Positions 3 to 16,536 of a DNA stretch of 32,677 nt are shown here, piece after piece (within the stretch, counting starts at the first letter, position 1; every line of letters starts with the position of its first letter). Source of the stretch: Deltaproteobacteria bacterium (GTDB lineage: Bacteria; Bdellovibrionota_C; UBA2361; JAFLCA01); NCBI GenBank assembly GCA_017302875.1, contig JAFLCA010000015.1:1-32677 (forward strand), read 5' to 3'. Both the position numbers and the translations under genes were made by a program. A model generated the notes under the pieces. The model ran no database searches. It saw only the letters and a list, made by a program, of their open reading frames with translations, and had not been told where the DNA came from.

Positions 3-1895
3 CTAGACTTTAAGGAGCTGTAGAGCGAGCGCCGGAATCTGGTTAGCTTGTGCTAGAACGGCTGCGCCTGCTTGCTTCAGAATTTGAGTGCGCGCAAGCT
101 TGGCGGTCTCCGCCGCAACATCTACATCAAGGATTCGAGCACTAGCGGATTCATAGTTTTCGCCTGAGGCACTTACTACCTGAAGTGCGGCACTGACGCG
201 GCTCTGAAAGCTTCCAATCTGTCCGCGCTGCTTTGCGATATTGGAAAGAGAGGTCTGCAACTGTGACAGTGCTTGCCGTGCACCGGCAGCACTCGAAAGA
301 TCAAAATTCAGCAGCGCCGATACTCCGTCGACTGTTCCGGCAGTCAGCACCTCAAGGTAGCCGTTATTTCCGACTCCGGAGTAGCTGGGAACCAGCAGAT
401 CAAGGACACCATCATTATTGAAGTCCCCGGCACTGACACCGCTTGGGGCCTGCACTCCGTTCGGGCTACCCACAGGTAGCTGAATTGTGGAAGTCGCCCC
501 TTGCGAGAACGTCCCATCTCCATTACCCAAGAAGAAAGTCGCGTCGTCACCCACCGCAACAAAGTCTAATTTCCCGTCACCGTTGAAATCTGCTACTTCG
601 GCCGCAGCATATATGCCGCCTAAATTTTGTGATGACTTAAATCCACCGACCCCATCCCCCAGGGCTACGATTGCATTTCCCGTTGAACCATCCATGGTAA
701 CCATATCCGCAAAGCCATCACCGTTAAGGTCAGCTGTTTCTCCGTAGTTAATCACTCCCGAGGTGATTAACGTATCAACGGAAGCGCCGAAGGTTCCATT
801 GCCCTGGCCGAGCTTAACCTCAGCATGCAGGCCTCCATTGGAATAGGTAGATATGATATCAAGAACCCCATCATTGTTTGCATCGCTCAGATGAAAGAAG
901 TGCCCGCCGCCGTCATTGAACGTCTGCACTCCCTGAGCGCTAAATGAACCCTTTCCATCACCCAAATAAGCTTGGTATTCACCCAGCGACGAAGTTGCCA
1001 CGAAATCCATTTTCCCATCCCCATTGAGGTCTCCCAGCTCTAGTTGAAGCGATGCTCCAGTTGGAAAAACACTGCTGCCCACCACAGTTTCAGAACCAAA
1101 GGTACCGTTTCCCTGTCCCAGACGAGCCGTTATGATGTCCGACGCGGCAGCAGCGACCATGTCCAATATGCCGTCGCTATTAATATCGGCAAGTCGCACA
1201 GCCTGTACGATGCCCGTAGTTGCATACTCAGTGCTCGCAGTGAAGGTGCCGTCACCGTTACCCAGTTCCACGATCAGCTTGCCGTTGCCACCGGAGACCA
1301 GATCTACATTCCCATCGCCATTCAAATCCGCCGTCTGCGCACGCGTGGTCCGGTTGGTGGCAATTGAATGATAGCCTAAACTTGCGAAACTCCCCGAGCC
1401 AACAGCACCTCCCATGCTGGCACCAATTCCCCCGTCAATTCCCACTCCAGCCTGCAGACGAAGCTGCCCCTGCGTTCCATCAAAAACATTGCGCCCGTTA
1501 AAGGTGCTTGTGGAGACTAGACGCACATACTCATCTTTGAGTTTCTTCGACTCAAGATTCAAAGCTTTGCGTTCGGTGTAGCCTAAGGAACCATTGGCAG
1601 ATTGCTCGGCCAGTTCGATAAGGCGTGTCACGACGTTGTTGAGCTGTTCAAGCGTCGAGTCCGCAATGTTCAGGTAACTCAGTCCATCGTTCAGATTACG
1701 TACGCCCTGACGCAGTACTCGTGCGCCGCTCGTAAGGCCCATTCCAATAGCGAGCCCTGCCGCATCGTCGGCGGCGCGATTGATCCGTTGCCCCGAGGAA
1801 AGGCGCTCAAAGACGGTAGATAGATCACTATCGGCGCGCCCTAAGTAGCGCGTGGTACGCAGTGCCGATATGTTAAGACCCAACGTAATTGCCAA
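3..1895 (-). CDS. Flagellin with an inserted seven-repeat FG-GAP/VCBS beta-propeller
   Basis: Structural subunit of the flagellar filament, exported by the flagellar T3SS. Residues 1-150 match the flagellin D0/D1 N-terminus (SSGQRINRAADDAAGLAI at 33-50, then NLNDGLSYLNIADSTLEQLN). Residues about 525-630 match the C-terminal D1/D0 helices (AETAKLARTQILKQAGAAVL, LAQANQIP). Between them, residues about 168-520 carry seven DxNxDGxxD calcium-loop repeats beginning near residues 190, 237, 289, 338, 389, 436 and 491. The spacing of 47-55 residues is typical of FG-GAP/VCBS repeats, and seven is the number that closes a propeller. The start is TTG, chosen because MAITLGLNIS is the canonical flagellin beginning; an AGGGA ribosome-binding site lies 7 nt upstream. 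At 630 aa it is longer than a plain flagellin, and the excess is the propeller. The flagellin call is near certain; the propeller fold is inferred from repeat number and spacing. Confidence 0.95.
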   Translation of the reverse strand: MAITLGLNISALRTTRYLGRADSDLSTVFERLSSGQRINRAADDAAGLAIGMGLTSGARVLRQGVRNLNDGLSYLNIADSTLEQLNNVVTRLIELAEQSANGSLGYTERKALNLESKKLKDEYVRLVSTSTFNGRNVFDGTQGQLRLQAGVGIDGGIGASMGGAVGSGSFASLGYHSIATNRTTRAQTADLNGDGNVDLVSGGNGKLIVELGNGDGTFTASTEYATTGIVQAVRLADINSDGILDMVAAAASDIITARLGQGNGTFGSETVVGSSVFPTGASLQLELGDLNGDGKMDFVATSSLGEYQAYLGDGKGSFSAQGVQTFNDGGGHFFHLSDANNDGVLDIISTYSNGGLHAEVKLGQGNGTFGASVDTLITSGVINYGETADLNGDGFADMVTMDGSTGNAIVALGDGVGGFKSSQNLGGIYAAAEVADFNGDGKLDFVAVGDDATFFLGNGDGTFSQGATSTIQLPVGSPNGVQAPSGVSAGDFNNDGVLDLLVPSYSGVGNNGYLEVLTAGTVDGVSALLNFDLSSAAGARQALSQLQTSLSNIAKQRGQIGSFQSRVSAALQVVSASGENYESASARILDVDVAAETAKLARTQILKQAGAAVLAQANQIPALALQLLKV

Positions 1896-2081
1896 GAACC
1901 ATTCCCTAAACTTCAGGGTTTAAGCTGTGGCGATACTTCGATACACCACCCTAGGATAGTCGGCTGTTTGTGAAAATAAATTCACGCTTGTGTAAGTGCG
2001 TAAATACTTTGAATTAAAAAGGAATATTTTGCTGAGTAAAAATCTCACGGCAGCGGGAAGGTGTTTCTCACGAACAAGCAC
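1896..2081 (-). promoter_or_regulatory. Flagellin upstream region with a palindrome and a weak sigma-28-like -10
   Basis: This gap separates the flagellin start from the upstream terminator, so flagellin must have its own promoter here. Read on the minus strand, GCCGACTA (1957-1964) resembles the sigma-28 -10 element GCCGATAA, but no good TAAA -35 sits at the expected distance. A perfect inverted repeat GTGAA-N6-TTCAC spans 1970-1985 just upstream, where an activator or repressor could bind. The DNA beyond it (1990-2040) is AT-rich. The promoter assignment is tentative. Confidence 0.3.
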
Positions 2082-2162: not shown

Positions 2163-3044
2163 CTATTGAGCGTGCACTTCTATTCCTATCTCCTGGTTAA
2201 CTCTTACCGCCTTGCGTGAACGCGGGCGGCGGCGATGAATCTTGCGACGCTCACCTGCTCCGTCTTCATCGTCGAAGTCCGGGCGGGCTTGCAATGCGCT
2301 TTCCTCGTCTCCCTTGTGGATAGCTGAGGACATGTCACCGTATAACGTTTCGAGAGCCTTCTTCTTTACTCGCGAAATATGGCAGCGGCTGTATCCAAGG
2401 CTGCTGGCGATATCCATGAGCTGCTGCTCTTGGATGTATATGCGATAAATAACTTCCTTTTCGAGAGAATCAAGTTTCTCGCAAGCACCGTGGCTCATCG
2501 AGACCATTTCCTTCTTGAGAAGCATTTCATCGGGCATCACATAATCATGACTGCAAAGAGCTTCCGCGATTTCAATAGCATTAACTCCGCGATAGCTAGC
2601 CTGCTCGGACTTCGCACCGGCTGAAGCGTCTTCAACCTGTGGGAGCGGCACTGCATTGGCGGTAGCAGCGGAAGCGACCGCACGAATCAAGTTTCCGCGC
2701 ATATGATAGAAGAGGAAAGTCATGAAGCTGGCGCCTTTGTTCGGGTTATAGCGGCGAACGGCTTCACACAAAGAAAGATCAACTACGGAATCGACTTCCT
2801 GCAAGTCCAAGCGCGCATGCCACTTACGAAGGATGCTGCGAGCGAGCTTGCGAGCCTTCATGCGATACGTCAGCACGAGCTCTTCTTGTTTGCGTGGCGA
2901 AAGAGTCTTAGCCTTGGCTGCCTTTTTAGGAAGGGGCAGCTCAATCACTTTGTTATTACGGTTATTTTTGCGCAAAGGAGTGATGGTCGTTGCGAACTCT
3001 TCACTTTCCTTGAACTTCAAATTACGTGCTGGCATTGCGTTCAT
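2163..3044 (-). CDS. Alternative sigma-70 family factor, FliA/WhiG-like
   Basis: Predicted RNA polymerase sigma subunit. Region 2 is visible at residues about 80-125, with the core-binding pattern DLSLCEAVRRYNPNKGASF followed by TFLFYHMRGNLIRAV. Region 4 is at about 190-235 (LDSLEKEVIYRIY, then the helix-turn-helix DIASSLGYSRCHISRVKKKAL). The middle, where region 3 should be, is poorly conserved. An unusual N-terminal basic stretch (about 23-72) and an Arg-rich tail (266-282) extend the protein to 293 aa, longer than typical FliA. The ATG at 3044 has a weak GGGGA upstream; MPAR at residue 4 is an alternative start. Its place between the flagellin and the T3SS loci suggests control of motility or secretion genes, which is inference. 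The sigma family call is strong; the regulon is unknown. Confidence 0.85.
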   Translation of the reverse strand: MNAMPARNLKFKESEEFATTITPLRKNNRNNKVIELPLPKKAAKAKTLSPRKQEELVLTYRMKARKLARSILRKWHARLDLQEVDSVVDLSLCEAVRRYNPNKGASFMTFLFYHMRGNLIRAVASAATANAVPLPQVEDASAGAKSEQASYRGVNAIEIAEALCSHDYVMPDEMLLKKEMVSMSHGACEKLDSLEKEVIYRIYIQEQQLMDIASSLGYSRCHISRVKKKALETLYGDMSSAIHKGDEESALQARPDFDDEDGAGERRKIHRRRPRSRKAVRVNQEIGIEVHAQ

Positions 3045-3468: not shown

Positions 3469-4251
3469 TTGGCGACAGAGACTACCGACGTATTAACGAT
3501 TGAGGAGGCTAATGCCCTGGTTTTAGAGCACCAGGGCTGGGCTGAGTCGATTGCCCGTTCCGTAGCCCGCTCCTGGAACATGGACTGGCGCCTGGATGGC
3601 CTGGATGGGGCCGCCATGGAAGCCCTCATTTTTTGCGCCCGGCGCTTTCAGCCGGCGCGCGGGGTGCCCTTCCGCGGCTACGCCCGCAAGCGCATTCATG
3701 AAGCCTCAACAGACGCCGCGCGCCGCTCGCGTGGCTGGAAACGCGGCAGCGTCTCTAACGCCGAGCAGCGTTCGCGTGAAATTTCCGCAGAATTGTTCAA
3801 CGTCTTCCCCGAACTACGAGTCGGAGAGCTCCCCTCGGGAGACGATTACGGGGACGGCGAAGAGGGCGCACGCTCAGCGATTAGAGAATTGCTCGTTGGA
3901 GCCAGCATCATTGCCTTCAAGCAGGGCATGACCAGCGACCAGCCGGATGAGCGTATTGATTATAAACGCATGGTTGAGTACGTCGCAGAGCTTGAGCCGG
4001 TGCACCAAGTAATGGTGTGGAAGCTGTACTGGGAAGGCAGTTCTATGCGTAACTTGGCCACAGAATGGGAGACTGATGAGCTCAATGTGATTCGTGAGCA
4101 CAAGGTGCTGCTCTTATTTCTCTCCAAGAGTTTTGCGAAAGGCAAACCGACGCAGCCTCCCAAGGTGCGCCCGGGTCTTAAAGCGATCAGTATTAAGTTA
4201 CGAAAAACCGACCCGGCCGGGCCGTTTAGCAAGTTACTGGATAGGGAGTGA
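3469..4251 (+). CDS. Divergent sigma-70-like protein
   Basis: The 260-aa product has a sigma region 2-like segment at residues about 45-95 (GLDGAAMEALIFCARRFQPA, then RGVPFRGYARKRIHEA and an Arg-rich run). A region 4-like segment lies at about 165-215 (ELEPVHQVMVWKLYWEG followed by a weak helix-turn-helix). The recognition helix is poorly conserved, so it may be a highly divergent sigma factor or a sigma-derived regulator. It starts with TTG, supported by AAGGGGGG ending 8 nt upstream. It is divergently oriented from the 3092-3325/2163-3044 pair, with 143 bp between them, and is followed after 3 nt by a small gene, so it heads a plus-strand operon that leads to the FliL-like gene. Confidence 0.7.
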   Translation: MATETTDVLTIEEANALVLEHQGWAESIARSVARSWNMDWRLDGLDGAAMEALIFCARRFQPARGVPFRGYARKRIHEASTDAARRSRGWKRGSVSNAEQRSREISAELFNVFPELRVGELPSGDDYGDGEEGARSAIRELLVGASIIAFKQGMTSDQPDERIDYKRMVEYVAELEPVHQVMVWKLYWEGSSMRNLATEWETDELNVIREHKVLLLFLSKSFAKGKPTQPPKVRPGLKAISIKLRKTDPAGPFSKLLDRE

Positions 4252-4821: not shown

Positions 4822-5391
4822 ATGGCAAAGGGCGACGACAGAAAACAAATTACGCAAAAGAAAGACGCTTGGTACTCTCTTTCTCAAGAAGACACCAAGC
4901 TGGCGCTCACCCTTTTCGTGGGCATGCTGGTAGTGGCCGGATTGTGCATGTTCACGCCAGTGACGCGTCTTACCACCGACTCGATAAATGCAGTTCTCGG
5001 GAAAAACACCAAGGGCAGCAAAGGCGGACTTGGCGATGGCGTGTACTACCTCGGACAGGTCCTGATGACGTTGCGAAGTAATTCCGAATACATCGATTCG
5101 GAAATAGACTTGGAATATGACGGCGGCGCCGTTACCACTATTTCAAATGGCGAAATCACCAGCGCTTCCGGCGCTAAAAAGTTCTTACGCGGACAAGAAG
5201 GCAAGATCCGCGACGCCATCGTGATGGAATCAGCCGGCTTTACGGCGCAACAGGTAAAGCGCCCCGGCGGAATCGAACATCTAAAATCTCAGCTCGTCAT
5301 GGCCATGAACCAGTCGTTCCGCGACGAAGATTTGATTAAGAATATCTATTTTAGAAAATTACTGGTCTATACCGAAGAAGACGAGGGTTAG
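4822..5391 (+). CDS. FliL-like single-pass membrane protein
   Basis: The 189-aa product has a short cytoplasmic N-terminus, one transmembrane helix at about 26-45 and a periplasmic domain. Residues about 85-186 follow the FliL pattern: an extended acidic strand region, then KIRDAIVMESAGFTAQQVK, GIEHLKSQLVMAMNQSF and NIYFRKLLV, which match the FliL IRDAI..., LK.EL...IN and V..VYF..FV signatures. FliL surrounds the flagellar stator and basal body and stabilises motor function. The gene overlaps the convergent TPR gene by 4 bp. The ribosome-binding site is weak (AGG only). A FliL-type protein beside T3SS rather than flagellar basal-body genes is unusual; it may serve a flagellum encoded elsewhere or have been recruited to this system. 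Confidence 0.7.
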   Translation: MAKGDDRKQITQKKDAWYSLSQEDTKLALTLFVGMLVVAGLCMFTPVTRLTTDSINAVLGKNTKGSKGGLGDGVYYLGQVLMTLRSNSEYIDSEIDLEYDGGAVTTISNGEITSASGAKKFLRGQEGKIRDAIVMESAGFTAQQVKRPGGIEHLKSQLVMAMNQSFRDEDLIKNIYFRKLLVYTEEDEG

Positions 5392-5828: not shown

Positions 5829-6091
5829 GAGCCCTCCGTAGTACCGGGCTTAACGGCCAGCCAATCAAGAACTTGCCGTAGCATGGCGGCCTCGCTGGCA
5901 GGGCGACGTGAAAGTTCCGAAGAATCGGGGTTGAGCTCCAGTTCCTTCTGCAATGCCAAAACTTTTTCAAAGCGGGCAAAGAGCGAAGAGGTAAGCGCCT
6001 CGAGCTTTCCGACTTGGCCCCTGACGGGCAAGAGCGCCAACAGCGGTGACAAGGAAAAAGGCTCGGGGTTAGAGCACAAAGATTTCTTCAT
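5825..6091 (-). CDS. Unknown 88-aa protein in the T3SS operon
   Basis: Not recognised. It starts with an ATGA overlap with the sctU stop codon and ends with an ATGA overlap with the TPR gene, so it is surely translated as part of the operon. The N-terminal third is hydrophobic and proline-containing; residues about 30-75 look like amphipathic helix. It sits exactly where the missing cytoplasmic domain of SctU would be encoded, but it has no NPTH motif and no resemblance to FlhB-C or FhlB that I can see. It could be a small chaperone or a regulatory subunit replacing that domain; this is speculation. Confidence 0.7.
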   Translation of the reverse strand: MKKSLCSNPEPFSLSPLLALLPVRGQVGKLEALTSSLFARFEKVLALQKELELNPDSSELSRRPASEAAMLRQVLDWLAVKPGTTEGS

Positions 6092-6756
6092 AGCGTTACA
6101 TCACTTTGAACAGCTTCGCCTTCCAACTCCTGACGGGTCATGCGATGTCGAGTCAGGAACAGAAATTTCGAAACAAACCAACTCAGGAGTGCCAGCACCA
6201 CGAGTAAGATACTCACAGGTATCAGAAGAGCCTGCGCAAATCCTTGCACCCATGAACTGAGATAAAGTCTATCATTGTTTAATAAATACAGCATCCCCGT
6301 CCAGCATAAACGGGCAGACAACAAGCCCCCTGCCAACATGAGCAAAACCAGCACAGCTGTCACCCACATCCTACCAAAAAGACCTAGCGGGCTAGGAAAG
6401 CGGATTTTATGCAGACGCTCGAAGCTAAGCGCCACAAGTCCAAAGCGAAAGAGGAATCGCGTCTGAAACAGGCCCCACAGAACCGACACGCTAAAGGCAG
6501 CCAACAAAGGAATGAGCACGGCGCGCGTAAGATGTGAGGCAACCGCGCTCCCTACCGAGAGGGGAAACGCTCCGGCGGTATAAGCAGTTTGCAGATCGGC
6601 TGCGATAGAGGAAAGCGAGCTCCGCACAAGCCATAAAGTACAGAGAAACGTCAGAGTGAACACGCAGCGGCAGGAGAATGGACTAATCGCGACAACGCCC
6701 TCTTCACGTAGACGCTTCAGCTTCGCTTCATTCGGCCATTCAGTTTTTTCGAGCAT
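6088..6756 (-). CDS. sctU: SctU/FlhB-family export apparatus protein lacking the autocleavage domain
   Basis: Inner-membrane export-apparatus switch protein. The N-terminus is a family hallmark (EKTEWPNEAKLKRLREEG, compare the usual EKTE.PT.K.L..AR..G). Four hydrophobic segments follow, then the juxtamembrane KFLFLTRHRMTRQELEGE that normally leads into the cytoplasmic domain. Here the chain ends 8 residues after MTRQELEGE. The roughly 100-130-residue FlhB-C domain with the NPTH self-cleavage site is absent, giving about 222 aa where 340-380 is usual. I prefer the ATG at 6756 over the upstream in-frame GTG at 6798 because it gives the canonical start and has a TAAGAG ribosome-binding site overlapping the sctT stop. 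The identity is firm; export-substrate switching must differ or depend on another protein. Confidence 0.88.
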   Translation of the reverse strand: MLEKTEWPNEAKLKRLREEGVVAISPFSCRCVFTLTFLCTLWLVRSSLSSIAADLQTAYTAGAFPLSVGSAVASHLTRAVLIPLLAAFSVSVLWGLFQTRFLFRFGLVALSFERLHKIRFPSPLGLFGRMWVTAVLVLLMLAGGLLSARLCWTGMLYLLNNDRLYLSSWVQGFAQALLIPVSILLVVLALLSWFVSKFLFLTRHRMTRQELEGEAVQSDVTL

Positions 6757-6767
6757 GCACAAATCTC

Positions 6768-7367
6768 TTATAGACGCGCTGCCAGTGCGGCCGGCCACAG
6801 CTCATGCGCACAGAGACCAATAATCAAATTAAACGCCAGAGAAAGTATTATCACCATCGAAATGGGCCGCAACGCTTCCAAGGCCAAGTGCGCCCGCGCA
6901 CGCCAGGCACCTTCAAACCACCGCACCGGCAACTCAAAGGCCAACTCTAACGCCATCGCCACGAAAGTTACCAAGCCCGCACAAAAAACTACCGCGCTAA
7001 GAACTGAAGAAAAAAGTAAGAAGAGCGAAGGCGCTGCCGTATCTCGCCCGACCGAAATCGCAGCTTCCGCAAACTGCATCCACCAACCCGAACCGAAAAG
7101 CAGAGAGCAGGCCAATACCGGTAACAGCAAAGAGAAGGATCGCAAGCGACACTTCGACCCGGCAAAAAGATCGAAGAAAATACCGGACAGCAAGGCCGCT
7201 AAGGGTAAGGAAAAAAGCAGCGCCGCTATCGCAAGCGCTTGTGCCCACGTAAGTGGAGCTCCTAGCCCAGTCAAAAATATGTCGAGCGCCAGACTAAGCC
7301 CAAGCAGCCCGAGCGCCGCTGGAATCTGAAAACTCAGTATGACGAGAACGACGAATACCGCGCTCAT
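6768..7367 (-). CDS. sctT: SctT/FliR-family export apparatus protein, shortened
   Basis: The 199-aa very hydrophobic protein has about five membrane segments (near residues 5-27, 41-63, 76-97, 113-138 and 165-188). Its assignment rests on position, since the order Q-R-S-T-U is conserved in T3SS operons, and on its FliR-like alternation of long hydrophobic helices with a helical segment near 144-160 (VRWFEGAWRARAHLALEAL). FliR/SctT proteins are usually about 250-265 aa, so this one appears to lack one helix and part of a loop. It starts 6 nt after the sctS stop and ends 11 nt before sctU. Sequence similarity is weak by eye; the identification is mainly syntenic. Confidence 0.75.
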   Translation of the reverse strand: MSAVFVVLVILSFQIPAALGLLGLSLALDIFLTGLGAPLTWAQALAIAALLFSLPLAALLSGIFFDLFAGSKCRLRSFSLLLPVLACSLLFGSGWWMQFAEAAISVGRDTAAPSLFLLFSSVLSAVVFCAGLVTFVAMALELAFELPVRWFEGAWRARAHLALEALRPISMVIILSLAFNLIIGLCAHELWPAALAARL

Positions 7368-7373
7368 CCATCC

Positions 7374-7622
7374 TCAGCGGAAAGCTAATTCGGCTAGATT
7401 GGTGCAAGTTCGAGCAAAGGCAGGGAATAGCAGATAGAGCACGATCAGGAGCGCCGCGATGCGAGCGGCATACCCGAGAGCAGGTTCCTGAATGGTCGTT
7501 GCCGCCTGCAACGAGCCGACAATTACCCCGATAAGAGTAATGCCCGCGATGAGCGGAAGGCCAATCAACAGTAACGCGCGAATACCGGCGACCAACACGT
7601 CATACTCGATTCCAGCATTCAT
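7374..7622 (-). CDS. sctS: SctS/FliQ-family export apparatus protein
   Basis: Small two-helix inner-membrane protein of the export gate base. The 82-aa product has helices at about 10-36 (GIRALLLIGLPLIAGITLIG) and 50-72, joined by the characteristic polar SLQAATTIQEPAL turn seen in FliQ/SctS (compare Q..T.I.E..L). I place the start at the ATG at 7622, where ATGA overlaps the sctR stop. The longer reading from 7664 would add 14 residues that overlap sctR and are not family-like. It lies between sctR and sctT as expected. Confidence 0.9.
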   Translation of the reverse strand: MNAGIEYDVLVAGIRALLLIGLPLIAGITLIGVIVGSLQAATTIQEPALGYAARIAALLIVLYLLFPAFARTCTNLAELAFR

Positions 7623-8266
7623 GATGCGTAGCCTCCTACCAACTTCTCTGCCACCAAAGCCCAACCATCGACGGCAAAAAAGAGAAGAATCTTTAACGGC
7701 AAAGCCACACTCATCGCCGAAATCTGAACGACCCCCAATGCCATCAACACATTCGTTACAAGAAGATCAATCACGACGAAGGGAATGAGAAAAATCAGGC
7801 CGAGCTGGAAGGCCTCTTGAAGTTGCGACACCAAAAAGGCGGAGATCAACGAGGCAAAACTTTCTTCCGCAGTTTTAGGCGCGGCAACAGGACCCGCGCT
7901 GCCGTCTTTCGACAGCGTCGGCGCTGGACTCGGAGCCGCCGCTAGTTTGGTGGCAAGCGCAGCAAAGCGCGAGCGAATATCTGGACGTGTGTGTTTTTCC
8001 AAAAATGGGCGAAAGCGCTCTTCGAGATGCTGAGTACCTTTCTGTGATCCAGAAATTAGACCCTCCACTCCCCCGAAGTCCTTAAGCTGCGGCCCCATCA
8101 CAAAAAGGGAGAGAGCGAAGGCCAAGGCAACCGTCACTACTCCAAAAGCTCCGCCCTGGATGCCAATCCCCGCACGCAAAATATGTAGGGAAGTGAAAAT
8201 CTTCACAAACGAGGTGAGCAATAAAACAGCTAGAAAGCCGCTCAGATAAGCAGGTAAAATGTCCAT
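7619..8266 (-). CDS. sctR: SctR/FliP-family export apparatus protein
   Basis: Core inner-membrane subunit of the SctRST export channel. The C-terminal third carries the FliP signature: EAFQLGLIFLIPFVVIDLL at about 151-169, followed by MALGVVQISAMSVALPLKIL and FFAVDGW ending near 202. Membrane segments lie near 8-26, 40-58, 153-172 and 185-205. A Pro/Ala-rich linker (about 108-132) enlarges the loop between the halves. The 87-bp gap before this gene is the largest in the operon and contains no obvious promoter. Family identity is certain; its partners SctS, SctT and SctU follow directly. Confidence 0.95.
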   Translation of the reverse strand: MDILPAYLSGFLAVLLLTSFVKIFTSLHILRAGIGIQGGAFGVVTVALAFALSLFVMGPQLKDFGGVEGLISGSQKGTQHLEERFRPFLEKHTRPDIRSRFAALATKLAAAPSPAPTLSKDGSAGPVAAPKTAEESFASLISAFLVSQLQEAFQLGLIFLIPFVVIDLLVTNVLMALGVVQISAMSVALPLKILLFFAVDGWALVAEKLVGGYAS

Positions 8267-8353
8267 GCCGACATGATAGGAGATGGGTTTCGGACTGGCT
8301 ATTCCCTATTTTAAGGGCCTGCGACCGCCTTAGATATGTCCGGCCGGCAGCGG

Positions 8354-9382
8354 CTACGCTACGGTGATAGCAAAGCGTCCCTGATAGCAGCACAGGGTGG
8401 CTGCTCCAACTTTTTCGCCGTTAATGATGAGCTGAACTACGTCGCTAAGCGGAATAGAACTGCCCCAGATTGCTCCGGGCTGGGCCATTTCGGCCATAGC
8501 GGCGGCATCCAGCGTCACTGTCCCGAACTGAATCGAAAGACGGGTAGTTCCTTCCGGGAGAACCGGGCTAGCGACCGGGCCGGGCAAGGTTTCAAACCCT
8601 ACCTTACCGTCGATATCGCAAAGCCGTGCGACCTGCCAGGCCTTGCCTCCCAAACGCAAGGTAACCGAATCCCCGAGCGGAACTTCGAGATCGATAATCG
8701 TGCCGGCTTTGAGGTAATCGACCAGCATCGTCGGCGGTACTGCCAATTGCGAAACTTCAATACTTACACTGGCTCCGCCCTCTTGCGGCTTAACCGTCGA
8801 CTGCACCTGTCGGCGCCATAGGCCGTCGAGTCTCTCGACCAGAGACTTCCCTAGTGCCATCCAAATGACAATCTGATCGCCATTCACAGAGCCCGTGAAC
8901 TTAACAACGCCGGCCACATCGGTTTCACGATGTTCGGCCTGAGAGTCGAACTGCACCACCGATGATTGCGGCCCGCTCCAAGACATGGCGAGGCTGGCCA
9001 TAAACCGGCGCGCCAGGTACTCAATCACGATTTCATTGCCGGCAGGATTCGAACCTGGAACAAACGCATTCAATAAAATTCGACACGAGGCAGCATCCAC
9101 AGCAACTCGAATCGGTTCCCCATCGACGGTTCCCCCGTACGAGACTTCAAGTCCTGAAGGGAATGCCAGCATCGGCTTGACCTCGATGGCCTTAAGCTCA
9201 ACACCTAAGGAATGGGCAAGCGGCAGCCAGTGAGTCGGAAATCCCGGGAACCACTTCTCAGGGCGACAACGCAAAAAGCCGCGCGAGTAACGCGATTCGC
9301 GTGGATCGAGCTTACGCACGTACCGCCCGGCTTCCCAAGGCGTCAATGCTACGGCCTCATCTGTTGTTCCCTGCTGATTCAT
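8354..9382 (-). CDS. sctQ: SctQ-family cytoplasmic ring protein with two SPOA domains
   Basis: Subunit of the cytoplasmic sorting platform (C-ring equivalent). The 342-aa protein ends in two tandem SpoA domains: residues about 205-262 (VSIEVSQLAVPPTMLVDYLK, then DLEVPLGDSVTLRLGGK) and about 281-342 (RLSIQFGTVTLDAAAMAEM, then IPLSDVVQLIINGEKVGAA). Two SpoA domains on one long chain distinguish SctQ from single-SpoA FliN. The N-terminal 200 residues are poorly conserved, as is usual. It starts 13 nt after the SctO-like gene. Two SpoA domains plus the following R-S-T-U genes make this a firm call. Confidence 0.92.
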   Translation of the reverse strand: MNQQGTTDEAVALTPWEAGRYVRKLDPRESRYSRGFLRCRPEKWFPGFPTHWLPLAHSLGVELKAIEVKPMLAFPSGLEVSYGGTVDGEPIRVAVDAASCRILLNAFVPGSNPAGNEIVIEYLARRFMASLAMSWSGPQSSVVQFDSQAEHRETDVAGVVKFTGSVNGDQIVIWMALGKSLVERLDGLWRRQVQSTVKPQEGGASVSIEVSQLAVPPTMLVDYLKAGTIIDLEVPLGDSVTLRLGGKAWQVARLCDIDGKVGFETLPGPVASPVLPEGTTRLSIQFGTVTLDAAAMAEMAQPGAIWGSSIPLSDVVQLIINGEKVGAATLCCYQGRFAITVA

Positions 9383-9395
9383 AAGCTACAAAAGT

Positions 9396-9782
9396 TTATT
9401 CCCTGTGCGTCGGATCATTCCGCAACACACTCAATTCTTCCTCTACAGCCCGTTTTCGTTCGCGGGCCTTCTCTACGTCCTGCAAGGCTTCCTGCCTTGC
9501 TTGGCGAGCTTTCGCAACTCGCTCTCGCAGCGCGCGCTTATAGGCTTCAGCGCTGCTCATTCCCGACGCATCCCCGCGATGAGCGGCCCGCGTCGAATTT
9601 AACTTTGTTAACTCAAACTCAATTTCCTGAATCTCCTGTTCAGCCTTCGCTAAGCGCTGCTCGCGACGTTTCAATTCCTGTGAGACTGTCTTTAAATATT
9701 CTTCCTGTTCTCCTACCGCTGCGACTTCCGGTTCCCCGGCGCCCGCAGTTAATACTTTTCCTTCGCCCTCGTTTCTAGCCAC
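9396..9782 (-). CDS. SctO/FliJ-like coiled-coil protein
   Basis: The 128-aa charged protein is almost entirely coiled coil in two helices (about 25-70 and 78-122) separated by a short Gly/Ser turn. This is the antiparallel hairpin architecture of FliJ/YscO, the central stalk of the T3SS ATPase. There is no sequence signature strong enough to exclude a SctL/FliH-type protein. The start is GTG with GTGAGG upstream, 7 nt after the preceding stop. Its position directly before sctQ matches SctO in canonical operons, where sctN normally precedes it; here sctN is missing. Confidence 0.6.
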   Translation of the reverse strand: MARNEGEGKVLTAGAGEPEVAAVGEQEEYLKTVSQELKRREQRLAKAEQEIQEIEFELTKLNSTRAAHRGDASGMSSAEAYKRALRERVAKARQARQEALQDVEKARERKRAVEEELSVLRNDPTHRE

Positions 9783-9789
9783 GTGGGCC

Positions 9790-10011
9790 TCACTTAATTT
9801 CCTTCAATGCTGCACGCAAGGCCGAGCCAACATAGGGCATGCGAACTTCAGGATCCTGGCCTGCCAAATCAGCAGCGGCCTTCTTGAGCCCCTCTCCATT
9901 GACGGAATCAATCTCCAAGTAGGCCTCGGCTTCACGTCCATCTAAAAGCAGAGCGACGGCAACCAAGGCACGTTGACGCGGCGCGAGAGATCGAAATCTT
10001 TGTGCGTCCAT
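9790..10011 (-). CDS. Unknown 73-aa protein between sctJ and the SctO-like gene
   Basis: Not recognised. It is a small, probably helical, soluble protein with an Arg/Ala/Leu-rich first half and no cysteines or membrane segment. Its start overlaps the sctJ stop as TAATG, showing translational coupling and arguing that it is a real component. Genes in this slot of T3SS operons often encode SctK or SctI-like accessory parts, but the size and sequence do not let me choose. Confidence 0.7.
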   Translation of the reverse strand: MDAQRFRSLAPRQRALVAVALLLDGREAEAYLEIDSVNGEGLKKAAADLAGQDPEVRMPYVGSALRAALKEIK

Positions 10012-10919
10012 TACGGTGCGCCTCCCTCTTCAATATTTTTGATTTCGCGGCGCGCCCGTTCAGCACGCGCTGCTCTTGGAACAACTTCCGGCAGTGTCGT
10101 ATCAAAATACTGCTTGGAATGCTGATAGTAGCCGTACCAGTACCCGAACACGGCTCCCACTCCTGCGACAACGGCGATGCAAGCAAACAACAGCAGCGCG
10201 ATTTGATTGTAATCGTCTTCAGGCACTCTCCAGAAGAAGAAGAACGGTGCCAAGGGAACGCGTAAGACTCTTCCATTATCGTTAAATACACCTTCACTAC
10301 CAGAGAGCTTTTCAGTCTCAGCAGCAGAAGAGACAGAAACGGTGACACGTTCCTTCTGTATTCCGGGGATAATTTGCGAAATTAAGGTAACCAAGTCTTC
10401 GGGCTTCACGACTGCCCCCGGGCGACTTTGCACGACGACTGCCACGGCTGGTTGCTGCTCGTTCTTCAAGAAATTCAGCCGCACTATGGCGCGAGCTGAA
10501 GCGATTCCCGGCGCGTTCTGCATCATCTCTTCGACTTCGGTTGCCAGGGCATGATCGAGCTTCAAGGCATCCATCTCGCGAGAATTCGGGATGAGACCGT
10601 TCTGCGAGATCAGTTCGTTAAATGAGGATTTGCGCTCGCCCGGAAGACCTTTTTCATGCAGCAACGAGACGGCCTGGGAATAGTAGCTGCGTTTTACTTC
10701 GACCGTGTATTTGGCTTTGCCTCCAGATTCGCGGGAAGCCATGGCGCTAATGCCGTGATCACTCAGAATGGCGACGATCTCGTTTGCCTGAGTCTGAGAA
10801 ACATCCTCGGCAACAGGAACGGTGTTACAGCCGCTCAGCAACAAGCAAAGCAGAAGCAATCCCAGTTTTATCATCTTGGATGCCATCGTGCGCTGTAAAA
10901 AGACCTTCCCTGTCGTCAT
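10011..10919 (-). CDS. sctJ: SctJ-family inner-membrane ring lipoprotein
   Basis: Homologue of YscJ/PrgK, which builds the inner-membrane ring of the T3SS basal body. It has a lipoprotein signal (LLLCLLLSGC, lipid-acceptor C31), then the two YscJ/FliF ring-building modules: about 35-110, with DHGISAMASRESGGKAKYTV and HEKGLPGERKSSF, and about 115-205, with REMDALKLDHALATEVEEMM and SRPGAVVKPEDL. A C-terminal transmembrane helix lies at about 238-262 with a short charged tail. The 302-aa length suits SctJ rather than full FliF. The start is uncertain: the ATG at 10919 has AAGG too close, and in-frame ATGs at residues 12 and 16 would also give a signal peptide. Confidence 0.93.
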   Translation of the reverse strand: MTTGKVFLQRTMASKMIKLGLLLLCLLLSGCNTVPVAEDVSQTQANEIVAILSDHGISAMASRESGGKAKYTVEVKRSYYSQAVSLLHEKGLPGERKSSFNELISQNGLIPNSREMDALKLDHALATEVEEMMQNAPGIASARAIVRLNFLKNEQQPAVAVVVQSRPGAVVKPEDLVTLISQIIPGIQKERVTVSVSSAAETEKLSGSEGVFNDNGRVLRVPLAPFFFFWRVPEDDYNQIALLLFACIAVVAGVGAVFGYWYGYYQHSKQYFDTTLPEVVPRAARAERARREIKNIEEGGAP

Positions 10920-10931
10920 GCCTTGGTCGTA

Positions 10932-12326
10932 TCACTTGACTCCGACGTGGGCAATCAACGAAACGAGGAATTCAACGTCCCCGAATCGCAGCCAGTCGCC
11001 ATGCTCAACGCCTACCACATCAGCCTCACGCCGATAGGTATCGTCACCGCGACGCCGCACGAATACTCCCCGGTCGCTCATGAGATCCTGCACCTGCAAA
11101 CCACCACCTAAGCCTACCGTCACGAGCGCATGCGGAGTTGAAATGCTCGGCTCATCAAGTACCAAATCCGTCTGCTTAAGGCTGCTTGCAGTTACGAAGA
11201 ACTTCCCCTCACGCAACTCAGTGGCCGCACCATCGGGATCACTGTAGCTCACGAGCCAGCCAAAGAGACGGCCCGGAGCAGCTTCTGCCTTTCGGGTGTC
11301 CTCAGACGCTCTAGCAGGCTGCATTGCCGGACGAGCCTGGCGTTCCTGTTCACGACGAGGCTCTTCACGTTGGCGCTGCTGATTCTGCTGCGGACGCTCC
11401 TGCTCACGCTGGCGCTGTTGCTGCTGCTGACGATCCTCGCGCGCAAAACTGATCGACTCGGCGCGTTCGTGACGCTCGCTGCGATCGCGCTGATCATTCT
11501 GCCGATCGTGCTTATGCTCAGATTTATGCTCTTGCTTGTGTTCATGCTTAGGTTCGTGACGCTGCTCCTGTTTGGGCTCGGGTTGAACCGGCTTGGCCTG
11601 CTGCTTTGGAGCTTCCTGTGGTTGCTCTTCGCGCGGGCGCCCAAATGACAAGCCTGAAGCTTTTCCATGGCGACGCATCCCCGATTCGACGATGACGCGC
11701 TGCGGCGCCTCTTCGACTTGCGGTTCTGCCTCCTGCACTGGCTCCTCCACAGGCGCAGCAGCTTCGACCTTGGCGACCGGAGCGACTGGCTCAGGCGTCA
11801 AAGTCGCGCGCTGGGAAATAATATGCGGCGTCGGAACGCTCTGCGGTGCAGCGCTCACCGGCTTCGGTGTCGCATGACCATTTCGATCCGCGCCTTGTTT
11901 GTCCGCGACCTTTACCGGCTCGCTTTCCTCTACTTCTTCAATATAGGCACTCAAAGGATCTTCGCTGGCCTCTTCCTCCATGACTTCGGGAGCTGCCGGA
12001 GCAACGGGAGCAGCCGCTCGCACAGGCTCAGGCGTCGGAGCGGCGCTAGGAGGAGGCGCTACCACAACCGGCGGAGCTTCAACGACCGGCGCAGCGCCTT
12101 CGGATGCGCGCAGTTTGCTAACCGCAGAATTTAGTTCGCTCTGCGCTTGCGACATCGTGCGCTGACGCACCCGTCCGGACTTCTTCTGATCTTTATCGGC
12201 TTCCTCGCCTTCACCTGAGGCGTCCAGCCCCGCGCCGCACATGCGACAGCGTGTCGACACAGCCGGGACGAGACTCCGGCAGGAAGGACAACGAACAAAG
12301 GTAAGCTCAGTGCTATCGGTAGCCAT
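10932..12326 (-). CDS. Zinc-ribbon and degenerate FHA protein with a long low-complexity linker
   Basis: The 464-aa protein has three parts. Residues 13-30 form a CxxC...CxxC zinc ribbon (C13, C16, C27, C30). Residues about 60-345 are disordered: first Ala/Pro-rich, then strongly Gln/Arg/Glu/His/Lys-rich with His-Lys clusters. Residues about 347-460 form an FHA-like domain (DLVLDEPSISTPHALVTVG, DLMSDRGVFVRR). The FHA core is degenerate: S..H is kept, but the first Arg and the NGT motif are altered, so phosphothreonine binding is doubtful. An AAGGAG site 6 nt before the ATG supports the start. It is second in the T3SS operon, just before sctJ, so it may join cytoplasmic signalling to the ring. 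Function unknown. Confidence 0.85.
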   Translation of the reverse strand: MATDSTELTFVRCPSCRSLVPAVSTRCRMCGAGLDASGEGEEADKDQKKSGRVRQRTMSQAQSELNSAVSKLRASEGAAPVVEAPPVVVAPPPSAAPTPEPVRAAAPVAPAAPEVMEEEASEDPLSAYIEEVEESEPVKVADKQGADRNGHATPKPVSAAPQSVPTPHIISQRATLTPEPVAPVAKVEAAAPVEEPVQEAEPQVEEAPQRVIVESGMRRHGKASGLSFGRPREEQPQEAPKQQAKPVQPEPKQEQRHEPKHEHKQEHKSEHKHDRQNDQRDRSERHERAESISFAREDRQQQQQRQREQERPQQNQQRQREEPRREQERQARPAMQPARASEDTRKAEAAPGRLFGWLVSYSDPDGAATELREGKFFVTASSLKQTDLVLDEPSISTPHALVTVGLGGGLQVQDLMSDRGVFVRRRGDDTYRREADVVGVEHGDWLRFGDVEFLVSLIAHVGVK

Positions 12327-12350
12327 GACGGACTCCTTACGTGTAAAAAC

Positions 12351-13691
12351 CTATCTAAAAATTGGAACGACTAAACCTATAATCATAAAAAACATCAGCA
12401 CGACCGCAAACGGGATGAACAACAGGGTCACCTTTCCAACAAAGCTGAGACTGCGATACAGGCGTACGATACGATCACGCAGCCGCAAGTTCTGGCGATC
12501 TGGATCGAGGCTTTCAGGAATACGCATGCCCGTGAGAGTGCCAACCACTTCAGCCAGCTCGCGTGCGGTATCATTGGGCGCAGATTCCTTGGCCTTATGA
12601 AATGCGTGCACCGCGCCATGAGAAGCTGCGAACGTTTTCTCATGCTCAGCTCCCAAGCAGATTGCAACGGTAAGCGAGCCGCCAAAATCCAACACCGTGG
12701 GATCTGCACCCACTTCGAGAATCTCTCCACGCTGCAAGAGGCCCTTGTCGTAAGCCGTGCCGTTGGTGGAATGATCTGTAACGGAGACCGACCCGTTGCG
12801 CGTGACCGAAACAGAGCAGTGATGCCGCGACACGTGCGGAGCTCCTAACCACATATCACTGGAAGGATCGCGTCCAATTTTGACGGTGCCGCCTGGCTGC
12901 AACACGAGGCGCGCAGGTCGGGCCACCTCTGAAACCGCAAGCAAGACTGGATAGCGGTTATCAAGCGACGGGGCAGCCTTGAGCATCTCACTTGGAGCGG
13001 CTGTGGCGCGAACAATCTGATCTTCCGAGGTAACCCCTAACACTGAAATCTCTCGACCTAAGCTGATGGGAGTTCCAGCCGGAACGGCTACGCGGCCCGA
13101 AATCTGTTGCTGGTTGATAAAGGTGCCATTCGTAGATCCGAGATCTTCAATCCAAAATTCTCCGCCCTCATACCCCATGCGAGCATGCCGCGCTGAAATA
13201 TCCGCTGAGTCCAGGCGCAGGGCGCATACTTTAGAACGGCCGATATAAATAGGCTGATCGGGCACGAAAGACATCACCAAGGGGGTATTGCCACGAACAA
13301 CGACAGCCGGAAAAAGAGGTGAAGGAGAACTACAAGCCTGCCGCAACACCCGCACGCCAGCTCGATCGGGAGTTTCGTTCTCTTTGAGGGCGAGATCGCA
13401 ATCAAGCGCCGATACCGTAATCTTGACCGGGCCTAAGTCGACCGTGGTCATCCCTTCATACGTTCCCTCAAATTTCTTTGCAGCTTGCCCTTCGTCTTTG
13501 GGAGCAACTGCGCGGCAACTGAAGCGGCGGCCGAGGTCCCGCAAAAAGCGCAGTTGATAGTGGAGATCCTTCATGTCTTCAAGAAAGACATGCGCATAGT
13601 CCGACGCTCCGACCAGCGCTTGCGGTCGACGGAGGAAAATCATCTCCGGTTGAGATACACCATCTTGGAAACTAATCTCGAGCGCGAACAT
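12351..13691 (-). CDS. Multi-FHA protein with C-terminal membrane anchor, SctD-like
   Basis: The 446-aa first gene of the T3SS operon has an N-terminal region that may be a degenerate FHA domain (about 15-100). Two intact FHA domains follow: about 135-215 (GR at 151-152, SARHA 166-170, GSTNGTF 185-191) and about 255-345 (GR 273-274, SRHH 288-291, STNGT 308-312). A single transmembrane helix lies at 419-441 and the chain stops 5 residues later. SctD proteins of T3SS also carry a cytoplasmic FHA domain and one membrane helix, but then have a periplasmic ring-forming part, which is absent here. FHA domains bind phosphothreonine peptides. The role as an SctD counterpart is inferred from domain order and from the adjacent sctJ. 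Confidence 0.85.
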   Translation of the reverse strand: MFALEISFQDGVSQPEMIFLRRPQALVGASDYAHVFLEDMKDLHYQLRFLRDLGRRFSCRAVAPKDEGQAAKKFEGTYEGMTTVDLGPVKITVSALDCDLALKENETPDRAGVRVLRQACSSPSPLFPAVVVRGNTPLVMSFVPDQPIYIGRSKVCALRLDSADISARHARMGYEGGEFWIEDLGSTNGTFINQQQISGRVAVPAGTPISLGREISVLGVTSEDQIVRATAAPSEMLKAAPSLDNRYPVLLAVSEVARPARLVLQPGGTVKIGRDPSSDMWLGAPHVSRHHCSVSVTRNGSVSVTDHSTNGTAYDKGLLQRGEILEVGADPTVLDFGGSLTVAICLGAEHEKTFAASHGAVHAFHKAKESAPNDTARELAEVVGTLTGMRIPESLDPDRQNLRLRDRIVRLYRSLSFVGKVTLLFIPFAVVLMFFMIIGLVVPIFR

Positions 13692-16212: not shown

Positions 16213-16536
16213 TTAGTCATTCTCGAGACGCAGGAAGGTTTTCCCAACAATCACCTCGTCGCCGACCTTGATATCGTACTTCACACCGGTCTCAAGGCGA
16301 GGACCTCGGTTGATAAAGGTACCGTTGCGACTGCCAACATCCTCGACCGTTACCGCGCTTCCCTTACACTCGACGACCGCGTGCTTACGGGAAATCTTGG
16401 CTTCGGTGTCCTCTTTCTCAAGGTCAATTTCAGGGAAGGCGCCGGAGTCCGGATCCCAACGCCCGATTAGATTACTGCCTTGTTCGAGCTTAAACACCCG
16501 CCCCTGGCCATCTCCACGTACGATTACAAGTCGCAT
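16213..16536 (-). CDS. Stand-alone FHA-domain protein
   Basis: The 107-aa protein is essentially one FHA domain with all key residues: GR at 25-26, SRKH at 49-52 and the GSRNGTF segment with N71. These bind phosphothreonine peptides, so the protein should recognise a kinase substrate. No Ser/Thr kinase is in the window. GGGG lies 5 nt before the ATG. It heads a two-gene unit with the MscS-like gene, behind a good promoter with a palindrome over its -10, and is divergent from the RNase G/E transcript. Confidence 0.92.
   Translation of the reverse strand: MRLVIVRGDGQGRVFKLEQGSNLIGRWDPDSGAFPEIDLEKEDTEAKISRKHAVVECKGSAVTVEDVGSRNGTFINRGPRLETGVKYDIKVGDEVIVGKTFLRLEND

Follow-up and report, generated by a model that had tools for sequence, protein, structure and literature searches.

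In the window, the 32,677-nucleotide stretch of bacterial DNA analysed here, we find a gene for a flagellin that carries a predicted seven-bladed FG-GAP/VCBS propeller between its two terminal regions; this architecture is a lineage-wide, many-copy family, not a single gene. We give about even chances to the reading that the propeller, closed and calcium-stabilised, is the surface domain of this flagellin, and that a shared filament chassis displays diversified binding heads.

The reading frame (Table 1) runs over positions 3..1895 without an internal stop codon, as the preliminary description had reported, and profile matches place flagellin sequence on both sides of the repeats: Flagellin_N, FG-GAP_3 (six scored stretches), FG-GAP (E 4e-20) and Flagellin_C all occur in the one protein, each above its curated Pfam cut-off, and the propeller runs straight into Flagellin_C. 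The same layout of Flagellin_N, FG-GAP and Flagellin_C was found in all ten (10/10) family members scanned against Pfam. The extent first proposed for the propeller, 336-1394, holds for its core but misses the outermost closing strands. By its profile scores the protein is classed as a flagellin rather than as the hook-associated protein FlgL: the best flagellin models match it at 176-186 bits, whereas the FlgL model gives 87 bits against a cut-off of 127. It stays below every equivalog cut-off for full-length flagellins, as is expected given the foreign middle. The contig starts 2 bases past the flagellin stop codon; the 3' flank lies outside the sequence.

Table 1. The FG-GAP flagellin gene, its parts and its candidate promoter element, in window coordinates
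Feature	Position	Strand	Basis or remark
FG-GAP flagellin gene	3..1895	-	ORF, 630 aa, TTG start, stop codon present; Pfam; homologues in many genomes
N-terminal flagellin D0/D1 region, residues 1-161	1413..1895	-	Flagellin_N 8-142, E 1e-28; model helices
Seven-bladed FG-GAP/VCBS propeller (predicted), residues 162-526	318..1412	-	FG-GAP_3 E 8e-49; 28-strand model; Foldseek
C-terminal flagellin D1/D0 region, residues 529-630	6..311	-	Flagellin_C 546-628, E 7e-17
Blade 1 calcium-loop motif DLNGDGNVD	1302..1328	-	Motif scan; conserved across family
Blade 2 calcium-loop motif DINSDGILD	1161..1187	-	Motif scan
Blade 3 calcium-loop motif DLNGDGKMD	1005..1031	-	Motif scan
Blade 4 calcium-loop motif DANNDGVLD	858..884	-	Motif scan
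Blade 5 calcium-loop motif DLNGDGFAD	705..731	-	Motif scan
Blade 6 calcium-loop motif DFNGDGKLD	564..590	-	Motif scan
Blade 7 calcium-loop motif DFNNDGVLD	399..425	-	Motif scan
Candidate sigma-28 (FliA-type) -10 element GCCGACTAT	1956..1964	-	61 bases before the TTG; without a clear -35

Exactly seven DxNxDGxxD motifs occur in the window protein, at residues 190, 237, 289, 338, 389, 436 and 491, with spacings of 47, 52, 49, 51, 47 and 55 residues and a DNA span of 399..1328, in agreement with the seven repeats 47-55 residues apart described earlier. Motif spacing implies seven blades in 114/114 distinct full-length FG-GAP flagellins; because all of these relatives imply the same number, the seven blades of the window protein go beyond chance. 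A relaxed motif pattern, applied to the 117 proteins first collected, gave seven motifs in 68 and six in 34, one motif being degenerate in each of the latter. A calcium-binding DxDxDG motif is predicted in the A-B loop of all seven blades: the putative calcium ligands anticipated in the preliminary description are kept in all seven loops of the window protein, and the aspartates at motif positions 1, 5 and 9 are conserved to at least 97% in each of the seven blades (n=114). Cysteine is absent from 111/114 propellers.

An AlphaFold2 model of the full window protein, built with nine relatives, has terminal flagellin helices with 28 strands between them (mean pLDDT 74), and its propeller blocks lie mostly at pLDDT 80-90. 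Modelled alone, the propeller reached pLDDT 84.4 and pTM 0.83, with 28 strands arranged as seven blades of four. The closed seven-bladed propeller of four-stranded blades that had been expected is thus what the models predict; the strand order, from which the closure was read instead of from coordinates, implies that the outer strand of blade 7 is supplied by the first strand, just past the N-terminal D1 helix. A Foldseek search against solved structures returned the AAL2 and PVL lectins as its top three matches (E 2e-11 to 6e-11; 22-23% identity; TM about 0.58), followed by chain B of 9v6e (TM 0.68), which we take to be ITFG2 of KICSTOR, and by CRTAC1 and integrin alpha-V. PVL is also the best solved relative of the propeller by sequence alone (phmmer E 6.5e-10), and the full-length model matches both flagellar filaments and FG-GAP-type propellers. 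Viral fold matches of the propeller were set aside as generic propellers. The proposed likeness to integrin propellers stands in so far as integrin FG-GAP folds match, but the VCBS/FG-GAP type of the PVL lectins is an equally apt comparison.

To judge by sequence, the window protein belongs to a known kind, the flagellins with a domain insert; its type of insert was not found described, and the scale is unusual. Flagellinolysins are alike in carrying a functional domain in the flagellin hypervariable region, between intact D0/D1 ends and, for the window protein presumably, displayed on the filament; their domain is a gluzincin peptidase that lateral transfer has carried into many phyla (PMC5595980), whereas here a putative seven-bladed calcium propeller occurs in two related groups with many copies per genome, and the window protein has no HExxH in its translation and no peptidase family in its Pfam scan. 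The PVL-type fungal lectins (PVL, AAL2), its closest solved relatives by sequence and fold, share the seven FG-GAP/VCBS blades and the calcium loops but are free-standing; two calcium ions were seen in AAL2 (PMC4483166), compared with seven complete motifs in the window protein. The PVL-type sugar pocket is formed by an Asn/Asp, the Trp of a GW and a His in the connecting segment (PMC4483166), and its GW, and apparently its His, is not conserved in the flagellins: 106/114 propellers have no GW, 72/114 have no Trp at all, and that of the window protein has none. We rejected an identity as a PVL-type GlcNAc lectin because the GW Trp of the pocket is not conserved, and accordingly assign no sugar. 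Integrin alpha chains and bacterial FG-GAP proteins share the seven FG-GAP repeats, the DxNxDG calcium loops and the propeller fold; the window protein is without the stalk domains or beta partner of integrin alpha, which is more distant from it by sequence than is PVL. The lectin domains of UmbA, from Streptomyces umbrella toxin particles (PDB 9oee), are FG-GAP-like propellers by profile and fold, but they belong to a secreted particle that has no relation to flagella.

Descriptions of flagellin inserts that probably have a molecular function are rare, the peptidases being the best studied. In 2017 Eckhard and colleagues distinguished 61 types of domain among the hypervariable regions of 26,587 flagellins, and FG-GAP/VCBS is not among the ten commonest domains given there (PMC5595980); Pereira and Lupas, surveying VCBS, do not mention flagella. 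No published flagellin-FG-GAP/VCBS fusion was found by title, abstract and open-access full-text search, and to that extent we agree with the earlier remark that the architecture was not known to have been described. In this lineage-specific family of flagellins, multiplied within genomes and constant at exactly seven blades, a predicted calcium propeller of integrin or lectin type is the standard outer domain.

The preliminary description had raised the worry that a flagellin and an FG-GAP protein had been joined in assembly. The window gene does stop where its contig stops, and assemblies can break at flagellin ends that are nearly identical; however, an independent copy, 92% identical to the window protein, lies on another contig (C145) of the same genome, 114 distinct full-length relatives with the same layout are spread over many genomes, and purifying selection extends across the whole gene, and we therefore reject a chimera. 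The C145 copy may be paralogous, or it may be the ortholog of a co-binned strain, the estimated contamination of the genome being 8.28%. Flagellin_N is matched 24 times in this genome, and about ten of these matches belong to FG-GAP flagellins. The survey of relatives proposed earlier found the fusion by profile search, with strong matches, in 20/46 genomes and 18/31 genera of the window's phylum-level group (one class), a few weaker matches in the genome count being partial or other flagellins, and in 5/369 genomes from the phylum to which a Bdellovibrio MAG belongs, presumed to be Bdellovibrionota. Uncultured MAGs with the fusion include 'bacterium Co_bin.265', 'bacterium 6_bin.32', 'Bdellovibrionales HKST-UBA25', 'HKST-UBA28' and 'Oligoflexia SSF28'; the Co_bin.265 genome holds at least 17 distinct full-length FG-GAP flagellins, and some copies form head-to-tail arrays of four. 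Samples of three other phyla, those of a Myxococcales MAG (379 genomes), a gammaproteobacterial MAG (399 genomes) and 'bacterium bin.15' (392 genomes), gave free-standing FG-GAP proteins or nothing among the best three candidates per genome; absence from these phyla is provisional because three candidates per genome were scored. Apparent double-flagellin fusions in 'open frames' of about 600 aa (e.g. G026:C775, G024:C378) were rejected, as stop codons separate the genes.

Conservation and change are divided between the two faces of the predicted propeller, the top face being made up of the DA and BC loops and the bottom (calcium) face of the AB and CD loops. Across the 114 proteins, mean column entropy is 1.54 and 1.75 bits in the flagellin ends, 1.37 in the calcium (AB) loops and 1.41 in the CD loops; it is 2.4-3.1 in the strands, 3.14 in the BC loops and 3.36 bits in the DA loops. 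Between the window gene and its C145 copy (dS 0.35, overall dN/dS 0.11), dN/dS is 0.04-0.05 in the ends, 0.05 in the bottom loops, 0.12 in the strands and 0.57 in the top loops. The protein is under purifying selection, and its amino-acid changes fall mainly in loops on a single face; this pattern holds whether the C145 copy is a paralogue or a co-binned-strain ortholog; as the top-loop dN/dS of 0.57 is below 1, relaxed constraint suffices to explain it. Part of the high top-loop variability is a general property of FG-GAP propellers. In a small control of 63 blades from non-flagellin FG-GAP proteins, few in number and with recently amplified repeats, the canonical G of the DA loop is found in 44/63 blades vs. 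198/541 in flagellins, and the canonical P in 50/63 vs. 101/541; the comparison suggests that DA loops are more diverse in flagellins than in other FG-GAP propellers, although a control of this size is not decisive.

The flagellin ends resemble each other more within genomes than between them, at 0.63 vs. 0.51 (N-terminal) and 0.58 vs. 0.45 (C-terminal), while the propellers are nearly as unlike within genomes as between them (0.34 vs. 0.31). Genome clustering is stronger for the ends than for the propellers (37 vs. 52 label changes), a weak difference, since the propeller tree is probably less well resolved. Two copies in one genome (G007, contigs C386 and C245; L126 and L011), both cut at contig edges, have ends at dS 0.13-0.20 and propellers at dS >1.3, a pattern that we take to signal either exchange of heads or conversion of ends. 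No other pair of copies shows this clearly, and in most pairs dS at the ends is saturated; we rejected gene conversion of the flagellin ends on a wholesale scale, since it is clear in the G007 pair only.

We infer from these patterns a course of export, assembly, folding, exposure and binding. The D0/D1 ends would build an ordinary filament core after export through the flagellar channel, a narrow passage that the propeller, with its seven calcium loops and usually no cysteines, could pass unfolded; it would then fold outside the cell, where calcium is high. RTX proteins fold outside the cell, where calcium is plentiful. Along the filament the propeller would be displayed many times, its calcium (bottom) face fixed and its top face diversified among copies, so that on a single chassis the lineage would maintain an array of distinct heads able to bind surfaces or glycans. 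A part in display or binding is consistent with variability on one side of the propeller and with the size and diversity of the families; by analogy, the variable top face would be the side on which AAL2 binds sugar (PMC4483166), and it is this pattern that suggests binding. A more ambitious version, in which one chassis carries up to ~20 calcium-gated heads with faces diversified partly by head exchange, so as to form a combinatorial recognition surface, is offered tentatively, as possible but less than probable. Bdellovibrio flagella are membrane-sheathed, and the heads would be hidden if the carrier flagella were sheathed in the same way. If the heads do bind surfaces, the flagellum would be an adhesion or recognition organelle with very many heads per filament, and the natural variants would be ready-made, export-compatible display scaffolds. 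FG-GAP flagellins would also offer a clear-cut way to test how a fold that depends on calcium stays competent for export until it is outside.

The restriction of variability to loops on a single face, the high copy number within genomes and the one pair with head exchange are also what would be seen if the propeller were a stable outer shell, locked by calcium, with a top face that changes so as to evade phages targeting the flagellum, grazing protists or recognition of other kinds, with copies switched or mixed and no particular ligand bound; flagellin hypervariable regions of other bacteria diversify likewise, according to work cited in PMC5595980. However, seven blades and seven calcium loops in all 114 copies are seemingly more constraint than a decoy shell needs, and we consider evasion rather unlikely. 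A mechanical role, in which propellers pack together and stiffen or thicken the filament for viscous swimming while different copies serve different segments, is more doubtful again. A motility role of outer domains is established in other flagellins (PMC8931119, PMC10256154), including the dimerising outer domains of enterobacterial flagellins, which are linked to swimming in viscous surroundings (PMC8931119); six flagellins make one Bdellovibrio filament (PMC2791853), and the bottom and rim, being conserved, might serve for packing. But the calcium motifs already account for the conservation of the bottom face, and propellers nearly as unlike within as between genomes do not suggest mutual packing of their tops.

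It is very improbable that the protein works away from the filament shaft, whether as an adhesin or effector-like product that leaves the cell by the flagellar exporter, or as a cap- or junction-associated subunit. The weak FlgL match of its ends (87 bits) and the presence in the window, at a distance of 4 kb, of a divergent cluster resembling type III secretion would suit such a role, but the match falls below the cut-off of 127, flagellin families reach 186 bits, and both ends are conserved as expected of a polymerising flagellin (dN/dS 0.04-0.05).

Next to the reading of a filament flagellin with displayed propellers, we set its promoter and export context. When hexamers are counted de novo in the upstream regions of 105 family members, GCCGAT, the -10 element of FliA-type promoters, ranks first (30 occurrences vs. 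about 6 expected), and many of its copies sit 58-140 bases before the matched coding start. The window's genome holds a full-length FlhA homologue.

Several neighbouring and related genes may be recorded. Two sigma-70-like proteins with weak FliA/WhiG similarity adjoin the flagellin, at 2163-3044 (-) and 3469-4251 (+), the latter just under the Pfam cut-off, and a FliL-like protein lies beyond them at 4822-5391. The divergent type III secretion-like cluster, at 6088-13691 (-) and 16213-16536 (-), about 4 kb from the flagellin, contains FlhB/SctU-like, FliP/SctR (E 8e-40), FliN-like, FliF/SctJ-like and several FHA/YscD-like proteins. In most of the genomes examined from the order (G000, G003, G004, G008, G011, G014-G016 and others), FlhA/SctV has three distinct homologues, of which one matches at full strength and the other two diverge further, which points to additional type III export systems beside the flagellum. 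Flagellins of intermediate length (420-530 aa; G000 contigs C39, C255, C224:15579-16208 and C12, and similar frames in relatives) gave no FG-GAP calcium motifs, and because of these the lineage may hold further unusual flagellin outer domains. Very large or free-standing multi-FG-GAP proteins resemble the flagellin propellers (G003:C14, a 3898-aa frame; G032:C60, a 4585-aa frame; L015, L197 and L262), and such proteins are a possible source of the inserted domain.
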